From Acidobacteriota bacterium (lineage in GTDB: Bacteria; Zixibacteria; MSB-5A5; GN15; FEB-12): DNA of 43,787 nt. This document shows, in pieces, positions 26,827-40,836 of the stretch (position 1 is the first letter of the stretch; each line of letters opens with the position of its first letter). The stretch covers positions 1-43,787 of the forward strand of contig DATKXK010000002.1 of NCBI GenBank assembly GCA_035529075.1, read 5' to 3'. The notes beneath the pieces are model-generated. The model saw nothing but the letters and a program-made list of their open reading frames with translations. It was not told the DNA's origin and ran no database searches. The position numbers and the translations under genes are program-made.

Positions 26827-29004
26827 TTACCTGACAAGCAGCATTTTTCGAGATTCGGTCTGGTCCCCAACCGTCAGCCGGTAGAAGTATATTCCCGTGG
26901 CTACCCCCCGGCCATCGCTCTTAAGCGCCGTCCATACGACCCTGTGGGGTCCGGCGGTCTGGAACTCGTCCACGATGGTAGCGACGTGCTGACCCAGAAG
27001 ATTGTACACGGTCAGCCGGACGTGACCGGCCTTCGCCAGGTTGTATGCGACGGCCGTCGACGAATTGAACGGATTGGGATAGTTACGCAGCTGGAACACG
27101 TCGGCGCTCCGGACCGCCACGGCCGTCCCGGCCGTGGAATATTCACGCAGATCGAACAAGTGTACGCCCTCGCCGTCCGACACGGCGACAATGCCGTCTT
27201 CGGCTGCGATCAGGCTGCCGCCCAGGCCGCCGTAGTCCAGCAGGACCGGCACCGTGTCTGTAATGTCGAAGATGCCGATCCCCGCCGCTGAGATTGTGTA
27301 CAGCAACTCGTCTTCAACGACCGATGCCGCCGCACCGACCGGCAGGAGGATCACGTCGTCAATCGACGGATGGGCCGGATCGGCGAGGTCGAAGAGCCAC
27401 ATCTGGTTGTAGTCGAATCCGACCAGTCGACTCGGGAGGCCCCCGGCCGTATCCGGCGGCAGCGGGACGAGGTCCGTAATCCGGGTACCGATGTGAAGGG
27501 TGGAGCGGAATTCCAGCGAGAAATCGTCGTAGATGCGATATACCCACAGCTCGAATTTGGCCGTCGAGAACACGAGCAGGGAATCGAAGATTTCCACGTC
27601 AAGGATGGGGGCCAGGGCGGTGAGGATGTCCAGCTTGGTGATGTCAACCGTATCCGAGAAAACATACACGTCCAGGTGGCTGCTTCCGATACCGAAGACG
27701 GACCGGAATTCACCTACCTGCTGGCGGTTGTACTTGACGTTCCAGGTCAGTTCGGGATGAGCCGGCAGCAGCGTGTCGAGGACGAGGTCGTCCGGCGTGA
27801 TCGCCATGAGGAAAATCGCCTCGGCCTCGGGATAGAGGATGAATACGGAATCCCCCTGGTGCGACGCCGCTCGCACGTCAGTCAGGCCGGGGAACACGGT
27901 GAACTCGGCGGTGGGTGTCAGGTCCGAACCGAGCGAGTACACGTCCAGCGGGTTGCCCGCACCGCCGGTGTAAAGCCGGCCGTCATGGAGAAACAGCGCC
28001 TGGACCGGACCGGGACGGGCATACGCAGGGGCGGCGTTAATGGTACCGGGCTGAATTTCGATGTTCAAAACGCGCAGCCCGCCGTCGGCTGACGGCAAAA
28101 CGACATGCCGATCCCCGCTGAGCGTCATGGTATCCCCTTGCAGTTCGTCGGAAAGTCCAGCGGCCAGCGAATAGCTGTATCGCGCGCCGGTATTGCGGTT
28201 GATCCGGTCGAAATACGAATTCCGCCAGCCGATGGACAACACCAGCGAGTCGAGGAAAAACGCGGTACTCGGGTTGTACTTGGGTCTGACGGTGTCTGAG
28301 ACCACCAGCGCCGAGTCGGACCATTGGGCCATCAGGATATCGCTGGAGGTAGCCAGCAGGATAGCTAGTTCGGGACCCGCACCGATCAGCTCCTTCGCCT
28401 GGCGGGGCAGGTAGAGGAAGTGTTCGAAGACGCCGAATCCGTCTCCCGCAATGTTATATGTCAGCACACCGTTGTAATCGTCGAGCGCGTACATGCGGTT
28501 ACCGTCGATCTGGACTCTTACGTAGTGCGCGCCGATCATGCTGGAATCGACGAACTCCGCCGAGTTGTAATCCCGCAGGCGATAGCGGAACAGCCCCTTG
28601 AATCCGGCGCATATGTACAGATCGTCACCGTCGAGCGCGTAATCGTAGAATTCAACCTCGAGATCGGCCCGTCCGAGCAGCGTGATCTCCGGCAGATCCG
28701 ACAGGTCGAGAAAATAGAGAATGTCAACGGTGGAACGAATCACCAGAATATCACCGAACAACCTGCGCGTCATCGGCCGGGCGGAGAGGAAGAGATGATT
28801 AATCGGCTCAAACATGGCGCTGGAGGAATCGTAACGGCACACTACCACGCCGGCGTCGGCCGTTGCCACCAGAAACGTGTCAATGACGGTGACGCCGCTG
28901 AAGTCGTTCCAGAGCAGCGTCTGGTCAGGCTCGCTGCTGATAAGCGCCTGCGCCGGCGCGGCCAGGGCAAGCGCGACAATGACAATGACTGCCGTCCGTT
29001 TCAT
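26827..29004 (-). CDS. Exported beta-propeller-like protein with Por-type tail
   Basis: The 725-residue protein has a signal peptide (MKRTAVIVIVALALAAPAQA). Most of the chain consists of repeated 40-50-residue beta units with LYTGGAGNPLDVYSLGSD- or DGDDLYICAGFKGLFRY-like blades, matching LVIVD/beta-propeller surface proteins. I saw no catalytic motif. The tail has LRNYPNPFNSSTAVAYNLA, VYNLLGQHV and a final KMLLVR, the Por/FlgD-like sorting module. Its ATG overlaps the stop of the upstream subtilase by one base (TAATG), so translation is probably coupled. It may be a binding partner or scaffold for the protease; that is inference from position. Confidence 0.82.
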   Translation of the reverse strand: MKRTAVIVIVALALAAPAQALISSEPDQTLLWNDFSGVTVIDTFLVATADAGVVVCRYDSSSAMFEPINHLFLSARPMTRRLFGDILVIRSTVDILYFLDLSDLPEITLLGRADLEVEFYDYALDGDDLYICAGFKGLFRYRLRDYNSAEFVDSSMIGAHYVRVQIDGNRMYALDDYNGVLTYNIAGDGFGVFEHFLYLPRQAKELIGAGPELAILLATSSDILMAQWSDSALVVSDTVRPKYNPSTAFFLDSLVLSIGWRNSYFDRINRNTGARYSYSLAAGLSDELQGDTMTLSGDRHVVLPSADGGLRVLNIEIQPGTINAAPAYARPGPVQALFLHDGRLYTGGAGNPLDVYSLGSDLTPTAEFTVFPGLTDVRAASHQGDSVFILYPEAEAIFLMAITPDDLVLDTLLPAHPELTWNVKYNRQQVGEFRSVFGIGSSHLDVYVFSDTVDITKLDILTALAPILDVEIFDSLLVFSTAKFELWVYRIYDDFSLEFRSTLHIGTRITDLVPLPPDTAGGLPSRLVGFDYNQMWLFDLADPAHPSIDDVILLPVGAAASVVEDELLYTISAAGIGIFDITDTVPVLLDYGGLGGSLIAAEDGIVAVSDGEGVHLFDLREYSTAGTAVAVRSADVFQLRNYPNPFNSSTAVAYNLAKAGHVRLTVYNLLGQHVATIVDEFQTAGPHRVVWTALKSDGRGVATGIYFYRLTVGDQTESRKMLLVR

Positions 29005-32000
29005 TACTTCACCAGGACCATCTTGCGTGCCATCTTCCGGTCTCCCGCGCGCAGGCGATAAAAGTACGTGCCCGAGGCATAGGGAGATCCGTCAAACGTG
29101 ACCACGTGTTCTCCGGCCGGAAGCTCCTTGTCCACCAGTGTTGACACAAGCCGGCCGAGAACGTTAAACACCTGTAGCGTAACAACCGACTTGACCGCAA
29201 GCGAGAATTCTATCGTCGTGCTCGGGTTAAACGGGTTGGGGTAGTTCTGCCGCAGCACAAACGCCGCGGGAAGCTGATCCCTGCGGTCGGGCACATGAGT
29301 GGGCACGTGGGGGGGGCCATCGAACTCGCCGTATATTCCGGAGTTCGAGTTATTGACGAAAAGGCGGCCGACGTTGTGGCCGCTATCTGACGAGGCATCG
29401 AAATTCCACACGTACACGTCGTTGGCCCCTCCCACGAGAATCAGCTCCACCAGCCCGTCGCCGTCGATGTCATCCACGAGGGGCGTGTACATGGTTGAAA
29501 AGACGTGCTGGGGCCGTGTGGGTGTGTAAATGGGCCAGCCCGGCAGCGGCGTGCCGGTATGATCCAGAATATGGAGCTGCTCGTGCCCGGTCCCGGGCAG
29601 GATGTAACCGGATCGAATAGCTATCTCGGGGTACTCGTCGCCGTTAAGGTTGGCGACAATGGGCGCACCAAACGTCACCGACCTTCGGTAGACTTCGCCC
29701 ACCGGTCCCTCGCTGGAGGCCATGTAGGGCGAGCCGTCGGCGCGAAATACATACAGCGCCGATACGTCGAATTCGAAAAAAGTACACAGGATCTCGAGGC
29801 CGCCGTCGAGATCAAGATCGGCGACCATCGGGTAGGATCCGCGATATCCGGCCACGTCCGGCAGGTCCACCGGCCAGCCGGGAAGGTCGTCGACCCCCCT
29901 GGTTTTTACATAGATGTGACGCATCCCGACAGAATCGTACCCTACCGAGATTGCCTCCGGCAACTGATCGTGGTTCAGGTCAGCCAGAATCGTACCATAG
30001 GTGCCCGATGTCCTGATCACATCCGGGGTCGGCCGGTCAAAGGCCGGCTGTCCCGTGCGTCCGTCGAAGACGCCCACACCTGAAGACGACTGACTGACCA
30101 CGACCTCGTTCTGGCCGTTGCCGGTGAGGTCAGTGGACGAAACGGCATTGCTGCCCCAGAAGAATGAACCTGCCGGCTGCTGGCTGAATGATGCGAACCA
30201 GCCGCCCAGAGAGTAGAAATACGGAGTGCCGTCGAAATGGTACGCGATAACCGTCCCGTCGTCGACGACGCACATGATCGCCGAGTCCTCGTAAATACCG
30301 AGTTGCGCGATGACCGGCTGCGGGAAACCGGACCCGATATTGTCGATCTCCCAGAATTTGGGCCAGCCCGGGACAGGAGTCCCGTCGTGGTTGACGGCAT
30401 AAATGCCGTCCTTATACGTGAATATGATCTCCCTTCTTCCGTCGCGGTCAATATCGTAAATGGCCGGGACGCAACGGCAGTCGTACTCGGGCAGAACGGG
30501 GAAACCGTCGACGTGCGACCCGTCAAACCGGAATACGTTCAACCCCGCCGCGGTGCCGACGACTATCTCCTTTGTCCCGGACCCGTCCAGGTCGGCGCAG
30601 GCGGCGGTATATGCACCGCGCCCGGTAAGAACCTGGGGCCAGCCGGAGGCAAAGGCCGAGCGGATCACGATCGTGACGGCATCGGAAAGTACCTGCGGAC
30701 CAAAGAAGCCGTCAATGACGACCGTGTAGTCGCCGGGGTCGAGACCTGATGAATTCCAGAGGAAAATGAGAGAATCGAAATACTCACCCGTCAGGGAGGC
30801 AAGCCGGATCAGTGGCTCGCCGAGATGGTTGTACGATATGGTCAGGGAATCCAGGTCGGGCCCGTACACGCTGCCGACAATAGGGATGCTGTAGTCGAAT
30901 TCTTCGCTGGTCTGAGGATACGTGATCTCCAGTCGGGTCCCGTTGACAAACGTGAAACTCGTCACGTGCTCGGAGCCGAAATCATCGATCAGCCTCAAGT
31001 ATATGTGGCCGCTGGGATCACCGGAGCCGAACGTGTAGGCGACGGAGTCAACCGGCGGCGTGCCGCCCGACGCCAGCGGCAGCCACGGTCCGGCCTGCGG
31101 GTCGAGCGAGTACTCCAGACTCCACCCGCCGGAATAGCCGGCCACGGTGGCGATTTTGACACTTACCTCATCCACGTGCCTCTGGCGATTGACGGGCCAG
31201 GCAATAAAAACACTGCCGCCGTCCAGAAGGGCGAGCGAGGCCTCAATATCGAGGTATCCGTAGCCGGTCACCGTGTCCGGACCGGGCAGGCTGTCACCCC
31301 GGTTCCACGGATCGAGCATGTCATCAGCACCCAGCCGGAGTAAGGTTTCAAGCTCGTTAAGGGCCAGGTCGGGGCGATAGGACAGCAGCAGCGCCGCGGC
31401 TCCGGCCGCCATCGGCGCCGCCATCGACGTCCCGTCGGACAGGTAGTAAAGGCTGTCCTCGCCGATGATGTGCACACCGGGTTCCCCCGCCGCCGTGTAC
31501 ATGTCCGTACCGGCGGCGCGCAGTGACAGGATGTCCTCGCCCGGAGCCACGAGGTCAACGCCCGGACCCCAGGAGGAGAAGGAAGTCATATACCCGTCAG
31601 AGTTGCCGGCGGCTACGGCAAAGGCCGAGTCAAAGGCCGCCGGGTACTGGGGGTCGCTGGAAGCGCTGTTGCCTGCCGCAATGGCGACGAAGACGCCGTT
31701 CCGTCGTGCAAACGTGATGGCATCGTTGAGCAGAAACGATTCATACGGTGAGCCCCAGCTCAGGTTGATCACGTCCGCGCCGGCATTGACCGCATACGCG
31801 ATACCGGCCGCACCCACCGCGCTGGTCGCGTTGGGGCGGATCTTTACCGGCATTATCTCCGCAAGCGGGGCCACCCCGACAATGCCGTAGCCGTCGGCGG
31901 CCGAGGCCACGATTCCCGCGATGTGCGTGCCGTGCCCGACTATATCAGTGGGATCATTGTCCCCAACGTAGTTGAAGTAATCCAGTGAGTCGCCCGATAT

Positions 32001-32678
32001 GTCATAGCCCAGCGTGTCATCCACAAAACCGTTGTGGTCGTCGTCGATCCCGTTACCGGGAATCTCATCCGGATTTTGCCAGAACCGGTTCTGCAGCTCC
32101 GGGTGGGTAAGGTCTGCACCGCCGTCCACGACCGCTACCACCACCGATGCGTTCGGCAGGGGCGGCGTCTCATAGAGAGACGTTAGACCGATGTCGACCC
32201 CCGGAGTCCCCTGCTTGGCTCGAAGGCTGTCATTAAATTGCCCGTCACGGCGTTCGATCCCGAGATAAGCCTGCCCATCGTTGTGCAGGTGCCACTGCAA
32301 CGGGAAAAGGGGATCGGTTGGGAAGCCGAAGAAGGTCAGGACACGGTCCTGCTCGATGTGCTCGACGTTCTCTGCGCCGAGTTTACCAATAATGTCGTCC
32401 GGGGAAATGTCACTTTGACCGCTGTAGAACGTGTACCAGCGATCCCACTCGGCCGACCCGGCCAGCTCGGAGCGCACCTTCACCGGTGACAACTGCTCCA
32501 AACGTTCTTCGCCGGCCAGAGCCAGTCGAAGCACCGAGGCCTGGGCGCGGGGGGAGAGCTTGACCAGGAATTTCCCGGGCACGACTCCGCCGGCAGGTAA
32601 ACCCTCGCCTTGCGAACGGGCTGCCGGATTGAGCGCCGTAACCAATACGCTCAGACAAAATATACCCAGGTATTTCAT
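29004..32678 (-). CDS. Secreted subtilisin-like serine protease with FG-GAP/VCBS-type repeats and Por-type tail
   Basis: This is a 1224-residue S8 protease with a signal peptide (MKYLGIFCLSVLVTAL). The triad is complete: Asp185 in VAVVDGGADLTHPE, His252 in GHGTHIAGIVAS and Ser418 in DGTSMAAPMAAGAAAL. The region before residue 170 is an I9-like propeptide (VPGKFLVKLSPRAQAS). After the protease and an Ig-like segment come FG-GAP/VCBS-type repeats (CADLDGSGTKEIVVGT, DIDRDGRREIIFTY, DIDGDGLVELILVG), which fold as a Ca-binding beta-propeller. The C-terminus is a Por/FlgD-like tail (NYPNPFNPSTTIEFSL, final KMVLVK). It is first in a probable three-gene operon with the propeller and beta-helix genes. 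The ribosome site is weak. Confidence 0.93.
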   Translation of the reverse strand: MKYLGIFCLSVLVTALNPAARSQGEGLPAGGVVPGKFLVKLSPRAQASVLRLALAGEERLEQLSPVKVRSELAGSAEWDRWYTFYSGQSDISPDDIIGKLGAENVEHIEQDRVLTFFGFPTDPLFPLQWHLHNDGQAYLGIERRDGQFNDSLRAKQGTPGVDIGLTSLYETPPLPNASVVVAVVDGGADLTHPELQNRFWQNPDEIPGNGIDDDHNGFVDDTLGYDISGDSLDYFNYVGDNDPTDIVGHGTHIAGIVASAADGYGIVGVAPLAEIMPVKIRPNATSAVGAAGIAYAVNAGADVINLSWGSPYESFLLNDAITFARRNGVFVAIAAGNSASSDPQYPAAFDSAFAVAAGNSDGYMTSFSSWGPGVDLVAPGEDILSLRAAGTDMYTAAGEPGVHIIGEDSLYYLSDGTSMAAPMAAGAAALLLSYRPDLALNELETLLRLGADDMLDPWNRGDSLPGPDTVTGYGYLDIEASLALLDGGSVFIAWPVNRQRHVDEVSVKIATVAGYSGGWSLEYSLDPQAGPWLPLASGGTPPVDSVAYTFGSGDPSGHIYLRLIDDFGSEHVTSFTFVNGTRLEITYPQTSEEFDYSIPIVGSVYGPDLDSLTISYNHLGEPLIRLASLTGEYFDSLIFLWNSSGLDPGDYTVVIDGFFGPQVLSDAVTIVIRSAFASGWPQVLTGRGAYTAACADLDGSGTKEIVVGTAAGLNVFRFDGSHVDGFPVLPEYDCRCVPAIYDIDRDGRREIIFTYKDGIYAVNHDGTPVPGWPKFWEIDNIGSGFPQPVIAQLGIYEDSAIMCVVDDGTVIAYHFDGTPYFYSLGGWFASFSQQPAGSFFWGSNAVSSTDLTGNGQNEVVVSQSSSGVGVFDGRTGQPAFDRPTPDVIRTSGTYGTILADLNHDQLPEAISVGYDSVGMRHIYVKTRGVDDLPGWPVDLPDVAGYRGSYPMVADLDLDGGLEILCTFFEFDVSALYVFRADGSPYMASSEGPVGEVYRRSVTFGAPIVANLNGDEYPEIAIRSGYILPGTGHEQLHILDHTGTPLPGWPIYTPTRPQHVFSTMYTPLVDDIDGDGLVELILVGGANDVYVWNFDASSDSGHNVGRLFVNNSNSGIYGEFDGPPHVPTHVPDRRDQLPAAFVLRQNYPNPFNPSTTIEFSLAVKSVVTLQVFNVLGRLVSTLVDKELPAGEHVVTFDGSPYASGTYFYRLRAGDRKMARKMVLVK

Positions 32679-32866: not shown

Positions 32867-35686
32867 CTAGGGGCACGGCGAAAGCGGGGTCGCACTGATA
32901 AACAGAAAGTCGATAAGCACGGTCAAGTCACCAATGTCAATATCGCCCGGCGAATCACCGTTCGTGTTGGCCTCGGCGGGGCAGGGGAGAGGATCTCCGG
33001 CGATGAACAGGTAGCCGATCAGGCGCGTCAGGTCACCGATGTCGGTCACATCCTGCGGATCGGCATCGATATTGCCCGTCAGTCCGGTGCAGCAGCAGGC
33101 ATCCCCGGTCCCGTCGTTGTCGGCGTCATCCTGGTCCGGATTGTAGTCCTCCGGACAGTTGTCCACCGGGCAGGTGTTCAGGGCAAAACCCGGGTCGCCG
33201 AAACCGTCCGCGTCTTTGTCCGTGCATGTATCACAACTGTCGCCGATTCCGTCGCCGTCGGCGTCGTCCTGGCCCGGATTGTACACGGCGGGGCAGTTGT
33301 CCGGCGGGCAGGTAGTGGCAGGAAAACCGGGACTGCCGAGGCCGTCGCCGTCCGGATCGGTGCAAACGTCGCAACTGTCTCCAATACCGTCACCGTCAAG
33401 GTCCGTCTGCCCGGGATTATATGCCCCAGAGCAGTTGTCGCACGAGTCCCCCACGCCGTCGCCGTCCGCGTCCGCCTGGCCCGGGTTGGCCATCGAGGGG
33501 CAGTTGTCTTCCTCGCACGTGGCGGCCGGATAACCGGGATCACCGTAACCGTCGCCGTCGGTATCGGTGCAGGTATCACAGGCGTCACCGACCCCGTCAC
33601 CGTCGGCGTCTTCCTGGTGAGGGTTGCTGACATTCGGGCAGTTGTCGAATTCATTGCACTCGTGGTCGTTGTCGCGGTCATCACAAATGTACGCATCGCG
33701 AATCGAGACGGTCGGATCACCGAACAGGTTGAGTTCATAGTAGCACCAGCGCATGGCATTCTCGTTGATTCGGAAGAGATTGTCTTCCTTGGAATCCTGG
33801 TTGGCGCGGCCGAGTTCGGTCTTCGCCTCCAGCGGGTTATACACGGCGTCCCAGAACTCCCGGGCAAAGCGCTGGGATGGACCATCGGTCGTCTCATGTC
33901 CCCCCCAGCCGTACCGGGCGTTCAAAATCGCCGCGAAGGCGCCGTGATCGGTCTTGATCGTCAGGTACTCTCCGTTGCACTCCAGGCAGTCCTGGAGCCA
34001 GGGGGCGAAGTCACAGAAATAGTCAAACGCCCCGGCGTGACAACCGATGGAGTAGAGGAACGGGTGGTGAACGTTAGTGAGCTGCTGCATCACTGTTTCC
34101 CTGGTCATCTTCATGCATATGTCGGGATTGCAGTGGCCGTAGTGGGAGATAAGATGTACTCCGCGATTGATACGTTCCACGATCTCCGAGACCGGCCATC
34201 CCGGTTCCGACGGATCGGGCCACGTCAAGTCGTACAGTTTGTCGATCTCATAGCTGGATGACGGAATGCCGATTGTCGAGTATCCGTTGGCGGTGCAACT
34301 GTCCACAAGTTCGTCGAGAAAATTCGCGCCCCAGTCTCCGTCACCGCCGTGGCCTATCCACTCGCCGGGCAGGAGCGCGTCGGCCAGGTAGGGGGTCAGG
34401 CAGGTAACGTACTTGATGGTTTTGTCGACAAATCGCCTGGCCTCGGCGGTATCGTCGACCGGCGCCCGGCCCACGTACACTTCGGCCATGAGGTCAACAT
34501 CTCCGCCGCCTTCGCCGTCGTTCGGCTCCCCCCAGAGAGAGTCGCCGTCGAAGTTGTACGTGCCGTCCAGACACCCGAAGTACAGGTCAGCCGGCATACG
34601 ATATTCCTGACAGCACCCCGGGTCGCCAATGGCTACCGCCTCGGCGTACAGGTCCACCGCCGGCAGGACATCGTCATCAGCACCGATCAGCACGTACTGG
34701 ATGCCGTCGCTGAGATACCGGTCCCTGATATAGTCGCGTATCGCCGAAGGGTCCGTGCTTCCCACCTCATCGATGGTGCGTATCTCCGTCGGCACGCCGG
34801 TGGTGTCATGAAAGATCTTCAACTCCTGAAAGGCGGGCGCCATTTCGGAGGTGGTGAGTATGAGCAGATCGACACTGCCCGCCCCTTGCAGTCCGGTCTG
34901 GTGATAGCTCAGTGCTTCCGGATTGTCCACTCTGTCACGGACTTCGGAGACGTCATCCACTCGATCCCGTAACAACGGGTTCAGCGTGCCGCTGCCCGTG
35001 GTATTGACGACTACGCTCATCTGAGGGAAGTAGTAAAGCTCGCCGGTTGACGGGACCCACTGGACCGGCTGGAGTTTCAGTATCAGGATTCGATAGCCTC
35101 GGAAGCTGTAGGTGCCTGTTGCTTCATAGGGTGCTTGCGGCCAGGCAATGTCGAGAGAGTAGACGGTGCTATCTGTCAGGGGCAGAGTGATCCCCTGAAG
35201 GGGCCGTGAGAGCCTTACGGGATGAGGTACGGGTTCAACGGTAAAGCCGCTGCCGACCAGTACTGCCTCGCCCGGCTCGACTTCGATGTCCGCTGCGTCG
35301 GTGCCCGGCGGCAGCAAAATCCGCGCGGCCCGGGCAGGAAGCGCGGGTTGTCCCGGGTTGCCGCAGGGCTGTGCCTGTGGCATGGTGACTCTGTGAAATA
35401 CCTGCCCGGCCCGGGTGACGGTCTCAACACGCGGTCGTTCCGAGAAGTACTCCAGCGACAGCTTTGCCGTCTCGCCACTGGCCGGAAATGCCAGGATTAG
35501 TATGAGAGCAGGAACGATCAGGGAGGGAAACACTCCGCCGAGCGTGATTGTCCGTTTCCTGCCCCCGGGGTTTGATTCCGGTCCAGGGGCGTGGTGACCC
35601 GCCAGGGGCGATCGGGTGGGCCTGCGCCGCGCCACCGTAATCCGTTCAGGACCTGCGGAGAGATTCGGGAATAAGTGCCTGCGCAT
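32867..35686 (-). CDS. Gingipain-like C25 cysteine protease with thrombospondin type 3 repeats and dockerin-like end
   Basis: From ATG 35686 the protein has 939 residues. A hydrophobic signal segment (PSLIVPALILILAFPASG) starts only at about residue 53, after an Arg/Pro-rich stretch with no other ATG; GTG at codon 52 is an alternative start but lacks a ribosome site. A C25 propeptide-like region follows. The catalytic dyad is His518 in SHYGHCNP and Cys549 in SIGCHAGAFD, a 31-residue gap like that of gingipains. Residues about 668-872 are five Ca-binding thrombospondin type 3 repeats (DADGDGVGDACD and similar, alternating with DNCP). The last 60 residues are two dockerin-like repeats (DIGDLTRLIGYLF, DIGDLTVLIDFLF). 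It is secreted and probably Arg/Lys-directed by family analogy. Confidence 0.9.
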   Translation of the reverse strand: MRRHLFPNLSAGPERITVARRRPTRSPLAGHHAPGPESNPGGRKRTITLGGVFPSLIVPALILILAFPASGETAKLSLEYFSERPRVETVTRAGQVFHRVTMPQAQPCGNPGQPALPARAARILLPPGTDAADIEVEPGEAVLVGSGFTVEPVPHPVRLSRPLQGITLPLTDSTVYSLDIAWPQAPYEATGTYSFRGYRILILKLQPVQWVPSTGELYYFPQMSVVVNTTGSGTLNPLLRDRVDDVSEVRDRVDNPEALSYHQTGLQGAGSVDLLILTTSEMAPAFQELKIFHDTTGVPTEIRTIDEVGSTDPSAIRDYIRDRYLSDGIQYVLIGADDDVLPAVDLYAEAVAIGDPGCCQEYRMPADLYFGCLDGTYNFDGDSLWGEPNDGEGGGDVDLMAEVYVGRAPVDDTAEARRFVDKTIKYVTCLTPYLADALLPGEWIGHGGDGDWGANFLDELVDSCTANGYSTIGIPSSSYEIDKLYDLTWPDPSEPGWPVSEIVERINRGVHLISHYGHCNPDICMKMTRETVMQQLTNVHHPFLYSIGCHAGAFDYFCDFAPWLQDCLECNGEYLTIKTDHGAFAAILNARYGWGGHETTDGPSQRFAREFWDAVYNPLEAKTELGRANQDSKEDNLFRINENAMRWCYYELNLFGDPTVSIRDAYICDDRDNDHECNEFDNCPNVSNPHQEDADGDGVGDACDTCTDTDGDGYGDPGYPAATCEEDNCPSMANPGQADADGDGVGDSCDNCSGAYNPGQTDLDGDGIGDSCDVCTDPDGDGLGSPGFPATTCPPDNCPAVYNPGQDDADGDGIGDSCDTCTDKDADGFGDPGFALNTCPVDNCPEDYNPDQDDADNDGTGDACCCTGLTGNIDADPQDVTDIGDLTRLIGYLFIAGDPLPCPAEANTNGDSPGDIDIGDLTVLIDFLFISATPLSPCP

Positions 35687-36048: not shown

Positions 36049-36282
36049 ATGAAGCAAACCGGCAGGGTTGTTCTCTTACTGCTTTCAGTGTTTTGCCTGG
36101 TCCTGGTGACCTACGACCGCGCGTACGCCTATATCGACCCGTCATCAGGCAGCTATTTCCTGCAGTTGCTCCTGGCCGGTCTTCTCAGCGCGCTCTTCGT
36201 GCTCAGGATGTACTGGCGGCGAGTCAAGAGTTTCCTTCTGAATCTGTTGTCACGGAGCCGCCGCGCCGAGGGTCATGACTAA
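36049..36282 (+). CDS. Small YIDP-motif membrane protein
   Basis: The 77-residue protein has a signal-like hydrophobic N-terminus (VVLLLLSVFCLVLVT) cleaved or turned near AYA, then the short conserved-looking motif YIDPSSGSYFLQ. A second membrane span (LLLAGLLSALFVL) and a basic tail (RMYWRRVKSF) follow. I recognise this as a recurrent unnamed small-protein type in bacterial envelope loci, but no function is known. It overlaps the next gene by 8 nt, so the two are co-translated and probably work together. The gene is far too well organised (promoter, signal, motif, overlap) to be a chance frame. Confidence 0.78.
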   Translation: MKQTGRVVLLLLSVFCLVLVTYDRAYAYIDPSSGSYFLQLLLAGLLSALFVLRMYWRRVKSFLLNLLSRSRRAEGHD

Positions 36283-37660
36283 GAAGGCGCCTGTGCGAGG
36301 TTCGTTTCGAGACCCCAGCGGCTTCGTCTTCTTTCGCGACGGCGTCCTTTACCGGCAGGTCAATCAGCGTTACCGGCGGCATTATGACCACCTGATGACG
36401 TCCGGCCTGTACGGGCATCTGGTGGATGCCGGACTGCTGGTGCCGCACGAGCGTGCTGATGATTCACGGGTGCAGACGGCCGAGGCATACCGCGTTCTCA
36501 AGCCGCTCATCGTACCGTTCATTTCGTATCCCTATGAGTGGAGTTTCAGCCAGTACCGCGATGCCGCGCTGGCGACTCTGGCTGCACAACAGGCCGCCCT
36601 CAGGCACGGTATGTGCCTTAAGGATGCGTCCGCATACAACGTGCAGTTTCTTGACGGTCGGCCGGTCCTGATCGATACGCTGTCCTTCGAGACTTACCGT
36701 GAGGGTGAGCCGTGGGTGGCCTACGGCCAGTTCTGCCGGCATTTTCTCGCTCCGCTGGCGCTGATGGCGCACGTCGATCTGCGGCTTGGCCAACTGGCTC
36801 GCGTGCATATCGACGGCATCCCGCTGGACATGGCATCGTCGATGCTGCCCCTGAAAACGCGCCTGCGGTTCTCGCTCCTGGCGCACGTCCACGCGCACGC
36901 ACGGTCGCAGCGACGGTACGCCGATCGCGGCACCAGGACGGCGAAAGGTCGCATGTCGCTCCGTGCTATGGAGGGCCTTGCCGACAGCCTCGTCTCGGCC
37001 GTTTCCCGCCTGGCTCCGCGCGGCGGCAGGACAGTCTGGTCGGAATACTACGACCAGGCCAGTTACTCTCAAGCAGCCATGACCCACAAGACCGAAATCG
37101 TGACGGAGTACTTAAGCCGTCTCAAACCGGCGGTCGTGTGGGATCTGGGGGCTAACACCGGTCGGTTCAGCCGGCTGGCCGCGCAGGGGGGAAGCTTGAC
37201 GGTTTCATTCGACAGCGATCCTCTGGCCGTTGAACTGAACTACCGTCGCTGCCGACAGGACAACGAGACGCGCATCCTTCCGCTGGTTGTCGACCTGTTC
37301 AACCCCAGCCCCGCTATCGGCTGGGAGAACAGCGAACGCATGTCTCTCGCCGAACGCGGGTCCGCCGATGCCGTCATGGCGCTCGCTCTGGTGCATCACC
37401 TGGCCATTGCCAACAACGTGCCGCTGGAAAGACTGGCGGTGTTTTTCGCGGGCCTGGCCGATACCCTGATGATCGAGTTCGTGCCCAAGACCGATTCTCA
37501 GGTACAACGCCTCCTGGCTTCGCGGGAAGACGTTTTTGACCGCTATGATCGGACAAACTTTGAGCAGGCGTTCGGACGCCGCTTCGAGTTTGTCGACGTT
37601 CGCGAAATACGTGACTCCGAGCGGACCATGTATCTGATGCGACGCCGGTCGGCACGGTAA
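36275..37660 (+). CDS. NoeA-like class I SAM methyltransferase with kinase-like N-terminal domain
   Basis: The protein has 461 residues. The C-terminal half carries a class I methyltransferase core: motif I VWDLGANTGRFSRLAAQGG (from residue 288), then VSFDSDPLAVE for the ribose-binding acidic residue, and a later LALVHHLAI. The overall length and shape match nodulation-protein NoeA-like methyltransferases. The N-terminal 200 residues hold KDASAYNVQF and VLIDTLSF. D117, N122 and D134 have the spacing of the catalytic Asp, metal-binding Asn and DFG-type Asp of aminoglycoside/protein kinase-like folds. That suggests a kinase-like domain, active or degenerate, in front of the methyltransferase. 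There is no signal peptide, so it is cytoplasmic. It overlaps the small membrane protein gene by 8 nt. The substrate is unknown; polysaccharide or lipid modification is the family-based guess. Confidence 0.85.
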   Translation: MTKKAPVRGSFRDPSGFVFFRDGVLYRQVNQRYRRHYDHLMTSGLYGHLVDAGLLVPHERADDSRVQTAEAYRVLKPLIVPFISYPYEWSFSQYRDAALATLAAQQAALRHGMCLKDASAYNVQFLDGRPVLIDTLSFETYREGEPWVAYGQFCRHFLAPLALMAHVDLRLGQLARVHIDGIPLDMASSMLPLKTRLRFSLLAHVHAHARSQRRYADRGTRTAKGRMSLRAMEGLADSLVSAVSRLAPRGGRTVWSEYYDQASYSQAAMTHKTEIVTEYLSRLKPAVVWDLGANTGRFSRLAAQGGSLTVSFDSDPLAVELNYRRCRQDNETRILPLVVDLFNPSPAIGWENSERMSLAERGSADAVMALALVHHLAIANNVPLERLAVFFAGLADTLMIEFVPKTDSQVQRLLASREDVFDRYDRTNFEQAFGRRFEFVDVREIRDSERTMYLMRRRSAR

Positions 37661-37742: not shown

Positions 37743-39077
37743 ATGATGAACATCTTTGATTTGGCTTATCACCTTGTCGGCGGACTCGTGTGCCTTTTTC
37801 TGGCTTTATTTTCCGTCAGCTCCGTCAGTGAACGAAAGCCCCGGGCGGCAATCGTAGCCGTGACTGCCCTTATGCTGTTCGGCCTTGTCTGGTCCGGCGG
37901 CTATTACTTGCTGCGCCCGCCGGGCTGGGTGCCGGCGGCGGCCGTTATCGCAATCCTGCTCCTGGCGGCCCTGTATTTCGCCCCGATCGGATCGAAGGAA
38001 TTACTGCAAATCGGATCTATCGATCAGAAGTTTGATGAACGCGACGTCGTGTTCGCCAGAGAAGAATATGTACCCGGAACCGAGAAGTATGAGCGCTATT
38101 ACGGCAGCCACCCCGAAAGGAAGGCCGCCGACGACAAGATGCGCAGCCTGCCGGAATTGTTACGGCCCGGCGGACGGTATTATGATGCCGTCCGCTCGCC
38201 CCGCGTGGAGGCTGTCTTCACAGTGATAGAGAGCCTGACAACGGCGGTCGATGGCGACGTCAACGCTGACCGCGCGCCCGTCGATCCCGCTGAAACGGCG
38301 CGGCAAGTAAAAGACCTGCTGGGCCGTTTCGGTGCCGGCGAGGTCGGGATTGCCAGGCTTAATCCCATGTACGTATACTCGCACGTTGGGCGCGGGCCCG
38401 AGCCGTGGGGCACTCCGATAAACAACGACCATCCTTTTGTCATCGTGTTCACCCTGGAAATGGATTATCACCGGGTCGAGGCAGCGCCTGACCTGCCCAT
38501 CATCGAGGAATCGGCGTTTCAGTACCAGCGGGGAGCGCAAATATCCATTGCTGTGGCCCGCCTTATTCGTGCTCTCGGCTACCGGGCCAGGGCGCATATA
38601 GCCGGCAGCAACTACCAGATAATACTCCCGGCCGTGGCACACGATGCCGGCCTGGGTGAACTGGGGAGAATCGGCTACCTGATATCACCGAAGCTGGGCC
38701 CGCGTATTCGCCTGGGAGCTATCACGACCGACATGCCGCTGGCGGTTGACAGGCCGCTGTCGTTCGGCGTACAGAATTTCTGTGAGAAATGCCTCAAGTG
38801 TGCCGACAACTGTCCCTCGGCGGCCATTCCCAAGGGGGCCGGGTGCGATGTTCGGGGCGTGAAGAAGTGGCCGCTCGATGCCGAAAGGTGTATCCACTAC
38901 TGGCGATCGATCGGCACCGACTGTGGTCTGTGCATGAAAGTCTGCCCGTACAGCCATCCCCCGACGTTTGTCCACAACCTCGTCAGAGCCGGTATCCGGC
39001 GTTCATCGCCGGCCCGCACGATATCCCTCTACGGGGATAACTTGCTGTACGGCAAGCGCGTCCGTAACTTCGTATAA
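37743..39077 (+). CDS. Membrane-anchored reductive-dehalogenase-like (RdhA family) iron-sulfur protein
   Basis: The protein has 444 residues (ATG 37743, or 37746 in tandem; GAGGT upstream). Three hydrophobic spans occupy about residues 5-27, 36-57 and 63-80. There is no twin-arginine signal. The middle region has the RdhA-type corrinoid-domain signature LGRIGYLISPKLGPRIRLG, followed by ITTDMPL. Two [4Fe-4S] motifs follow: C347, C350, C353 and C357 (CEKCLKCADNCP), and C383, C394, C397 and C401 (CGLCMKVCP). This order is that of reductive dehalogenases and, more distantly, epoxyqueuosine reductase. No RdhB membrane-anchor gene adjoins it; the N-terminal spans may replace that subunit. Cofactor and substrate are not shown by the sequence; a dehalogenating role is only one possibility. 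Confidence 0.85.
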   Translation: MMNIFDLAYHLVGGLVCLFLALFSVSSVSERKPRAAIVAVTALMLFGLVWSGGYYLLRPPGWVPAAAVIAILLLAALYFAPIGSKELLQIGSIDQKFDERDVVFAREEYVPGTEKYERYYGSHPERKAADDKMRSLPELLRPGGRYYDAVRSPRVEAVFTVIESLTTAVDGDVNADRAPVDPAETARQVKDLLGRFGAGEVGIARLNPMYVYSHVGRGPEPWGTPINNDHPFVIVFTLEMDYHRVEAAPDLPIIEESAFQYQRGAQISIAVARLIRALGYRARAHIAGSNYQIILPAVAHDAGLGELGRIGYLISPKLGPRIRLGAITTDMPLAVDRPLSFGVQNFCEKCLKCADNCPSAAIPKGAGCDVRGVKKWPLDAERCIHYWRSIGTDCGLCMKVCPYSHPPTFVHNLVRAGIRRSSPARTISLYGDNLLYGKRVRNFV

Positions 39078-39846: not shown

Positions 39847-40836
39847 CTACTGCCAGGGGTAATTCTGTCTTTCGACGCAGTAGCCTCCCGAGGCGCAAGC
39901 CGCCAGGTCGACGGTAAACTCAAGCTTCTCGTCGCCTTCAGCCAGCAACGGCTCCGTCACGACGATCTTATACTTCCCCGGCCTCAGATCGCGGATTTCG
40001 TATTGGACGTCAAAGAGACAAAGGCAGAGGCATCCCCCCTCGAACAGGGAATCCTTCTCAGTTATCCGGATCACACCGCCGTCAACGGAGATCTCGGCAG
40101 TAATGACGGGGCAGCAATTGAATCCGGCGTTTATGTGATTCAGTTGCAGTACGCTGCTGCCGTCATATTGATATTGGATACAGTCCTGGGTTGCCGGTGT
40201 GTGTGCGGCCACATGCGGTTCAAACTCCTTGCAGTCGGTGGAGCCGACCAACTGCCCGCTGGGTGCGGGCGAAAGATTCCACGGGTAGAAGTCTCTCTGG
40301 ATACAGTAGCTGCCTGACGAGGAAGGGGTAAGAGATACCGAAAACTCCAGCGGCTCGTCACCCTCCGCCTCATTGACGTAAGGCTCAACCATCTTCAGGA
40401 CGTAGTCACCGGCAGGGACGTCCGGTATCACATAGTCGGCATCGAAAAGGCACAGACACCGGCACCCCTGTTCCGACTCTCTCTCCGTTATCGTGATAAC
40501 CTTGTTCTTGACGCTGACGTGCGCAGATATCTCTCCCGGACAGCAGTTGAACGCCGCGTTGACGTGCTGAATATGAAGAGTGTCGCCCGGACCGTACTGG
40601 TAGACCACACAGTCGCTGTCGGACTGTATGATCTTGTCGGCGTCTCCATCGCTGTAGATCTTGCATTCACCAATGGTGCCGGAGATGTCAAAAGCTATGT
40701 TGTCAGTTGAGGTTGTAGGTGCTGATTTGTCGTCCTGGCAGCCGCCCAGCAGAAGCAGCAGGGCGACAGCGGCCATGCCGACGGCTGCCCTTCCCGGGCG
40801 AGCCCGGCCGGCTGAGTACTGTCCGATTCCGGTCAT
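39847..40836 (-). CDS. Lipoprotein with two tandem eight-cysteine domains
   Basis: The protein has 329 residues. GGAGGT lies 5 nt before ATG 40836. The lipobox LLLLLGGC puts the lipidated cysteine at residue 33. The mature chain is two homologous units of about 130 residues (roughly 52-186 and 193-328). Each has an early pair of single cysteines (58, 76; 202, 219), a CC pair in FNCCP (98-99; 241-242), a CxCxC cluster running into LCLFD (125, 127, 129; 269, 271, 273), a conserved GxYxxxxxEP strand, and a final YC near YPW (178; 320). I recognise the pattern from unnamed FCB lipoproteins but not as a named domain. Disulfide-stabilised beta sandwiches or metal binding are both possible. Confidence 0.83.
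   Translation of the reverse strand: MTGIGQYSAGRARPGRAAVGMAAVALLLLLGGCQDDKSAPTTSTDNIAFDISGTIGECKIYSDGDADKIIQSDSDCVVYQYGPGDTLHIQHVNAAFNCCPGEISAHVSVKNKVITITERESEQGCRCLCLFDADYVIPDVPAGDYVLKMVEPYVNEAEGDEPLEFSVSLTPSSSGSYCIQRDFYPWNLSPAPSGQLVGSTDCKEFEPHVAAHTPATQDCIQYQYDGSSVLQLNHINAGFNCCPVITAEISVDGGVIRITEKDSLFEGGCLCLCLFDVQYEIRDLRPGKYKIVVTEPLLAEGDEKLEFTVDLAACASGGYCVERQNYPWQ

Follow-up and report, generated by a model that had tools for sequence, protein, structure and literature searches.

Predicted kinase-like/methyltransferase fusion of the NoeA family and its pairing with a small YxDP membrane protein

The gene noeA is a host-range nodulation gene that has been known since 1995. In the literature found, its product is only hypothesised to modify the Nod factor, and no measured activity was found there for any member of the NoeA family. 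Krysinska et al. 2022 described the Lani_1194 family, identified NoeA as a homologue and predicted a kinase-like plus methyltransferase architecture, with the methyltransferase carried by 94% of Lani_1194 homologues (PMC9758233). In that family, the D/N/D residues were conserved, an Arg took the place of the catalytic Lys (R38 of Lani_1194 was proposed as the equivalent of PKA K72) and no ion-pair Glu was found (PMC9758233). Among 816 gene neighbourhoods, Lani_1193 was present in 65% and Lani_1195, a NoeB homologue, in 38%, and Lani_1194 was included in a list of putative effector kinases of Legionella (PMC9758233).

WbdD, the O-antigen chain terminator of E. coli O9a, also combines a kinase and a methyltransferase in one polypeptide. 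It works at the inner membrane, adding a phosphate to the terminal mannose of the lipid-linked O9a glycan and subsequently methylating this phosphate (PMC3482155). The WbdD kinase has a eukaryotic-type fold, yet acts on a sugar, and mutation of D351 abolishes activity (PMC3482155). In the methyltransferase, methylation requires H132, H133 and R203, which were identified as conferring the use of phosphate as acceptor; H132-H133 bind the phosphate, R203 is the third residue of the same site, and NodS or RebM, which do not act on phosphate, have HH or YY (PMC3482155).

In this study, a gene pair was analysed in a 43,787-nucleotide stretch of DNA (hereafter, the window; GenBank assembly GCA_035529075.1, contig DATKXK010000002.1). 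An earlier note, made from the sequence alone, had proposed that the pair encodes a kinase-like/methyltransferase fusion and a tiny membrane protein, which may together form a two-component envelope-modification system. The kinase-methyltransferase reading is already in print and hence not new: Krysinska et al. 2022 predicted the same architecture, so the headline idea of the note is not novel. Added here are the widespread small partner, its orphan copies before alkaline-phosphatase (AP)-superfamily genes and the correspondence to the WbdD phosphate site.

The gene pair and the NoeA/Lani_1194 family

The pair consists of the following features:

36049..36282, + strand: small single-pass membrane protein of the YxDP family, 77 aa (open reading frame)
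36275..37660, + strand: NoeA-family kinase-like/methyltransferase fusion protein, 461 aa (identity to NoeA, AlphaFold2 model)
36275..36282, + strand: 8-nt overlap ATGACTAA common to both genes (sequence, assuming the ATG start)

The overlap with a 77-residue YIDPSSGSY membrane protein had been pointed out before, and both open reading frames were indeed present and shared ATGACTAA. The 8-nt overlap is true only if the ATG at 36275 is the start of the downstream gene, for which an in-frame GTG at 36293 is an alternative candidate; given the ATG start, it suggests translational coupling of the two genes. The genes also overlapped in 59 of 73 homologous pairs, with starts picked by alignment to the window protein.

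The neighbouring genes (32867-35686, divergent upstream on the - strand, and 37743-39077, an Fe-S protein gene on the + strand that begins 82 nt past the stop codon of the noeA-like gene) were not recurrent partners in the neighbour clusters of noeA-like homologues. Judged by eye, the upstream product is a secreted protein of 939 aa whose Asp-rich repeats resemble those of thrombospondin type 3 and whose C-terminus resembles a dockerin. The downstream product is a membrane-anchored protein with a C-terminal 4Fe-4S dicluster domain (Fer4_7), and its co-transcription with the noeA-like gene is possible. Farther along the window, 39847-40836 encodes a predicted lipoprotein with two tandem domain copies carrying Cys-x-Cys-x-Cys (CRCLC and CLCLC).

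The window protein matched Sinorhizobium meliloti NoeA with 37% identity over 98% of its length (residues 7-457, E 4e-62). A translated search of plasmid records returned 65 homologues, mostly Sinorhizobium NoeA, and the relatives closer than NoeA came from Singulisphaera, Gemmatirosa and a deltaproteobacterium. A profile scan using one genome per species revealed at least 550 relatives across many phyla, 80 of which were kept for the alignment. Judged by full-length homology, the kinase-like N-terminal fold, the D/N/D residues and the C-terminal class I methyltransferase, the window protein is a member of the NoeA/Lani_1194 family. It retains all of the proposed catalytic residues of S. meliloti NoeA and, like it, has a YxDP open reading frame directly upstream, whereas the window genome has neither an adjacent noeB nor a nodulation context. 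The Lani_1194 family has in common with it the kinase-methyltransferase architecture, D/N/D, Arg for Lys and conserved neighbours; the differences are the WbdD phosphate-site correspondence and the YxDP protein, as the main text of Krysinska et al. 2022 contains neither this correspondence nor a description of the small protein sequence (PMC9758233). The small YxDP protein may well correspond to Lani_1193.

Two predicted catalytic domains and their comparison with WbdD

The domains and residues considered in the fusion protein are as follows:

36275..37015, + strand: kinase-like domain, residues 1-247 (AlphaFold2 and Foldseek PDB matches)
36353..36355, + strand: Arg27, invariant, probably taking the place of the kinase beta3 Lys (80/80 homologues)
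36623..36625, + strand: Asp117, putative catalytic Asp (80/80; aligned with the catalytic-loop Asp of WbdD)
36638..36640, + strand: Asn122, putative metal-binding Asn (80/80; aligned with the Asn of WbdD HDDVRPWN)
36674..36676, + strand: Asp134, DFG-type Asp (80/80; aligned with WbdD D351)
37022..37657, + strand: class I SAM-dependent methyltransferase domain, residues 250-461 (weak Pfam Methyltransf_11 match, Foldseek, hhalign)
37394..37399, + strand: His374-His375, aligned with WbdD H132-H133 (80/80; profile alignments)
37622..37624, + strand: Arg450, aligned with WbdD R203 (80/80; hhalign, low-confidence alignment region)

The AlphaFold2 model of the full-length protein had a pLDDT of 90.7 and a pTM of 0.91. 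The N-terminal half was modelled separately for the fold search because the full-length search was dominated by methyltransferases, and the model of residues 1-247 had a pLDDT of 90.2 and a pTM of 0.88. Kinase-type folds made up all of the best 50 PDB matches of this half in Foldseek (best E 1e-4, probability 1.00; MSK1, PAK1, ROCK, PknG, the isocitrate dehydrogenase kinase AceK and homoserine kinase among them), with TM-scores of only 0.33-0.50. D117, N122 and D134 were invariant in 80/80 homologues, and were also kept in S. meliloti NoeA (37% identity) and a 35%-identical Chloroflexota homologue; R27 and E88 were likewise invariant in the alignment (n = 80), and R27 is the probable one-to-one match of R38 of Lani_1194. 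The kinase-fold reading is supported because both the fold search and the residue conservation, which were set beforehand as checks, came out in its favour. The three residues lie where they had been reported, with spacings of +5 and +12, and the helix and hinge-like segment described ahead of the catalytic loop appear in the predicted structure as strand 71-77, linker 78-90 and long helix 91-110. The argument from kinase-like spacing fared less well: the spacing is present but weak by itself and was dropped as stand-alone evidence, because D-x4-N-x10..13-D arose in 12.5% of shuffled versions of the window protein and was also found in 44 of 299 unrelated neighbour open reading frames.

A kinase family was not reliably reached by sequence profile, which is a supporting and not a defining feature of the PKL superfamily. 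Pfam gave no match on the kinase half of the window protein, the N-terminal profile had no match among PDB sequences up to E 5, and a RIO1 Pfam match occurred in 3 of the 80 relatives (best E 0.08). Overall, a kinase-like fold of the PKL superfamily is supported for the N-terminal half by the predicted structure. In the C-terminal half, motif I, already described as clear, reads DLGANTG and was invariant at D290/G292/N294/G296 across the 80 homologues, and WbdD (4azs) ranked second in the full-length Foldseek search. The proposed fusion of a kinase-like domain and a methyltransferase in one polypeptide is supported.

The NoeA-family profile was aligned with one WbdD sequence by hhalign. The methyltransferase halves aligned with Probab 94 over a core of 110 columns, and H374, H375 and R450, each invariant in 80/80 homologues, fell on WbdD H132, H133 and R203. 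D117, N122 and D134 fell on the WbdD catalytic loop and D351; the kinase half gave a Probab of 0.07, which is not significant, with the catalytic motif alone lining up. The two proteins resemble each other in joining a kinase and a methyltransferase in one chain and in the alignment of D/N/D, HH and, at low confidence, R. They differ in domain order (methyltransferase-kinase in WbdD, kinase-methyltransferase in the window protein), in the C-terminal coiled-coil extension of WbdD, in place of which the window protein ends with the methyltransferase domain, and in kinase halves that are not detectably related by sequence. We read the likeness as probably one of similar working, not of family membership.

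On this basis, we propose that the enzyme is bifunctional and recruited to the membrane, where it would phosphorylate a glycan, lipid-linked or not, and also add a methyl group to it, perhaps to the phosphate just attached. We consider this proposal to have an even chance of being right. The small YxDP protein would be translated just ahead of the NoeA-family enzyme. Working from the cytoplasm, the enzyme would then transfer phosphate from ATP to a hydroxyl group at the inner membrane, the acceptor being a glycan, a lipid-linked glycan or a lipo-oligosaccharide. Its methyltransferase half would methylate the product, plausibly at the phosphate so introduced, and yield a methyl-phosphate cap like the one that WbdD makes on the O9a antigen. 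The small protein (N-out, C-in, with Y-x-D-P-G-x-G-S at the outer-face membrane-water interface and the basic tail on the cytoplasmic side) would either hold the enzyme at the membrane or pass the substrate to it there, and in many genomes an AP-superfamily enzyme (NoeB) would contribute to this pathway from the outer side. We infer the order of steps, the glycan substrate, phosphate as the methyl acceptor, catalysis and anchoring alike. Family identity, predicted folds, invariant active-site residues, the WbdD phosphate site, the gene pairing and glycan-linked neighbours were counted for the model; the reduced N-lobe, the TM-scores of 0.33-0.50, a kinase half unlike WbdD by sequence, the unspecific HH and the Anaerolineales gene context were counted against it.

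The phosphate acceptor was weighed with 26 other class I methyltransferases of the same genome, gathered by family searches. HH plus Arg occupied the WbdD phosphate-site places in 1 of these 26 controls, which, together with the invariance of H374, H375 and R450, argues against a methyltransferase that would methylate another sugar hydroxyl or carboxyl beside an active kinase-like domain and make no methyl-phosphate. This alternative is somewhat improbable but survives best, as class I methyltransferases mostly methylate O, N or C rather than phosphate, and HH alone is not specific. Moreover, Arg alone aligned at the R203 position in 11 of the 26 controls, so that the equivalence of R450 and R203, which lie in a low-confidence part of the alignment, is uncertain. 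A stand-alone class I methyltransferase on contig 9 of the same genome (G000:C9:18196-18489) also aligned HH and R with the WbdD site.

The proposed phosphorylation depends on the kinase-like half, in which the N-lobe is reduced and LKD stands in place of the usual HRD motif. These features, with Arg for the beta3 Lys and no ion-pair Glu, would also suit a pseudokinase or ATP-binding regulator that presents the substrate and leaves methylation as the sole catalysis. We consider this unlikely, given that none of the three residues for catalysis or metal binding varies across a broad range of taxa, which would be unusual for a pseudokinase.

The small YxDP protein and its genomic partners

The motif of the small protein is located as follows:

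36130..36156, + strand: YIDPSSGSY motif (residues 28-36), which immediately precedes the membrane helix and is predicted to face outward (conservation, topology statistics)

The small protein of the window has a predicted signal sequence ending ...DRAYA, followed by YIDPSSGSY, one hydrophobic segment and a basic tail; Y28, D30, P31, G34 and Q39 were invariant in an alignment of 25 homologues. Two N-terminal types were distinguished among 73 homologues, namely, a signal-like leader ending in A-x-A before the Tyr (46/73 fit the -3/-1 rule) and a leaderless form with only 7-12 residues, mostly uncharged, before the motif (15/73). The basic segment after the hydrophobic helix contained a median of six K/R in the 73 homologues. 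Both types yield the same predicted topology, N-out/C-in with the motif outside and the basic tail inside. Pfam and NCBIfam gave no family for the small protein, and none of the motif strings YLDPGTGS, YIDPGTGS, YIDPGSGS and YLDPGSGS was found in the literature of the one text library searched. In S. meliloti, the operon order is nodL, a 71-aa hypothetical protein, noeA and noeB, and the 71-aa product (pSymA record, L029:7754-7969) belongs to the YxDP proteins and contains the segment AHAYLDPGTGSMLVQ and the motif YLDPGTGS. This open reading frame is annotated only as hypothetical and is missing from the usual three-gene nodL-noeA-noeB description.

The YIDPSSGSY protein is a widespread partner of the noeA-like gene. 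It was directly upstream in 73 of the 80 loci with enough flanking DNA and nearby in 5 more, a conserved pairing stronger than the earlier note could have known. The co-occurrence survey that the note had suggested pointed the same way: among 132 genomes of the window's phylum, 24 contained the noeA-like gene, 23 the small protein and 20 both (hypergeometric 7e-17), and in the four noeA-only genomes all four genes lay at contig edges. In 301 Chloroflexota genomes, each gene was present in 44 and both in 42. At one contig edge (G051:C215, locus L127), a small YxDP protein has as its neighbour a subtilisin-like gene that resembles the one at window 29004-32678, which suggests a gene order in common with the window.

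The idea of a two-component system held with respect to the pairing, and missed a third common partner, the NoeB-like AP-superfamily gene. A noeB homologue (PF00884) followed immediately downstream in 36 of 75 loci and was present somewhere in the region in 44. No NoeB gene stands beside the pair in the window; the noeB homologue of this genome is on contig 9, with 35% identity to the query. Sugar-nucleotide genes accompanied some noeA-like homologues, and in many Anaerolineales the pair lies among housekeeping genes outside any glycan cluster.

Extra small-protein copies were found ahead of NoeB-like genes in Zixibacteria, and 6 of the 7 orphan small proteins inspected in Chloroflexota precede PF01663 phosphodiesterase or sulfatase-like genes (one partner gene assigned by Pfam, the others by shared N-terminal sequence). 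Because extra and orphan copies precede such genes, the small protein looks like a general companion of envelope phospho- or sulfo-transfer enzymes. The AP-superfamily envelope enzymes (PF00884 sulfatase/LTA synthase-like NoeB; PF01663) share the YxDP companion gene, but have another enzyme fold and are partner genes rather than homologues of the window protein. The Chloroflexota orphans of loci L140, L142:4175-6166, L143, L144 and L145 lie directly upstream of a type I phosphodiesterase (PF01663) of about 605 aa, without noeA. Loci L136 (G065:C137) and L026 each carry a second small protein ahead of a NoeB-like gene and next to a 30-residue noeA-like remnant, about 4.7 kb upstream of a complete small protein-noeA pair.

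The build of the small protein (signal sequence, short motif, one helix and basic tail) resembles a sorting signal, with almost nothing separating the motif from the predicted cleavage site of the signal peptide, and its invariant Y, D, P, G and Q, as well as a weak Gram_pos_anchor match in one orphan copy (E 0.008), would agree with a peptide acceptor that NoeA/NoeB-type enzymes modify or are guided to. Against this very unlikely role, the predicted topology places the motif outside, away from the cytoplasmic kinase, we noticed no sortase-like gene among the genes listed, and orphan copies pair with phosphodiesterases.

Implications for the NoeA family

The least credible reading, a protein kinase acting on proteins as an effector of the kind considered for Legionella, has in its favour that the best fold matches are protein kinases and that Lani_1194 appears in a list of putative effector kinases. 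Against it stand the distribution over environmental bacteria from many phyla, the operons that include NodL and NoeB, and WbdD, which acts on a sugar although its kinase fold is also of the eukaryotic type. Under the proposed phosphorylation and methylation of a glycan, a broader and more doubtful suggestion follows. NoeA and its relatives may be a second class of kinase plus phosphate-methyltransferase, with a different arrangement, which attaches methyl-phosphate to glycans that are lipid-linked or secreted, rhizobial signals among them, and works together with an undescribed family of tiny N-out Y-x-D-P-G-x-G-S proteins that would also serve AP-superfamily enzymes; nodL-noeA-noeB would then be a four-gene operon. 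We offer this suggestion tentatively and consider it more likely wrong than right.

The YxDP family, of which the libraries searched gave no description, is apparently a shared accessory of several envelope-modifying enzymes. The active-site match to WbdD gives NoeA a testable chemistry, and the kinase-like site, the WbdD-like residues and the tiny partner turn the Nod-factor hypothesis into specific tests.
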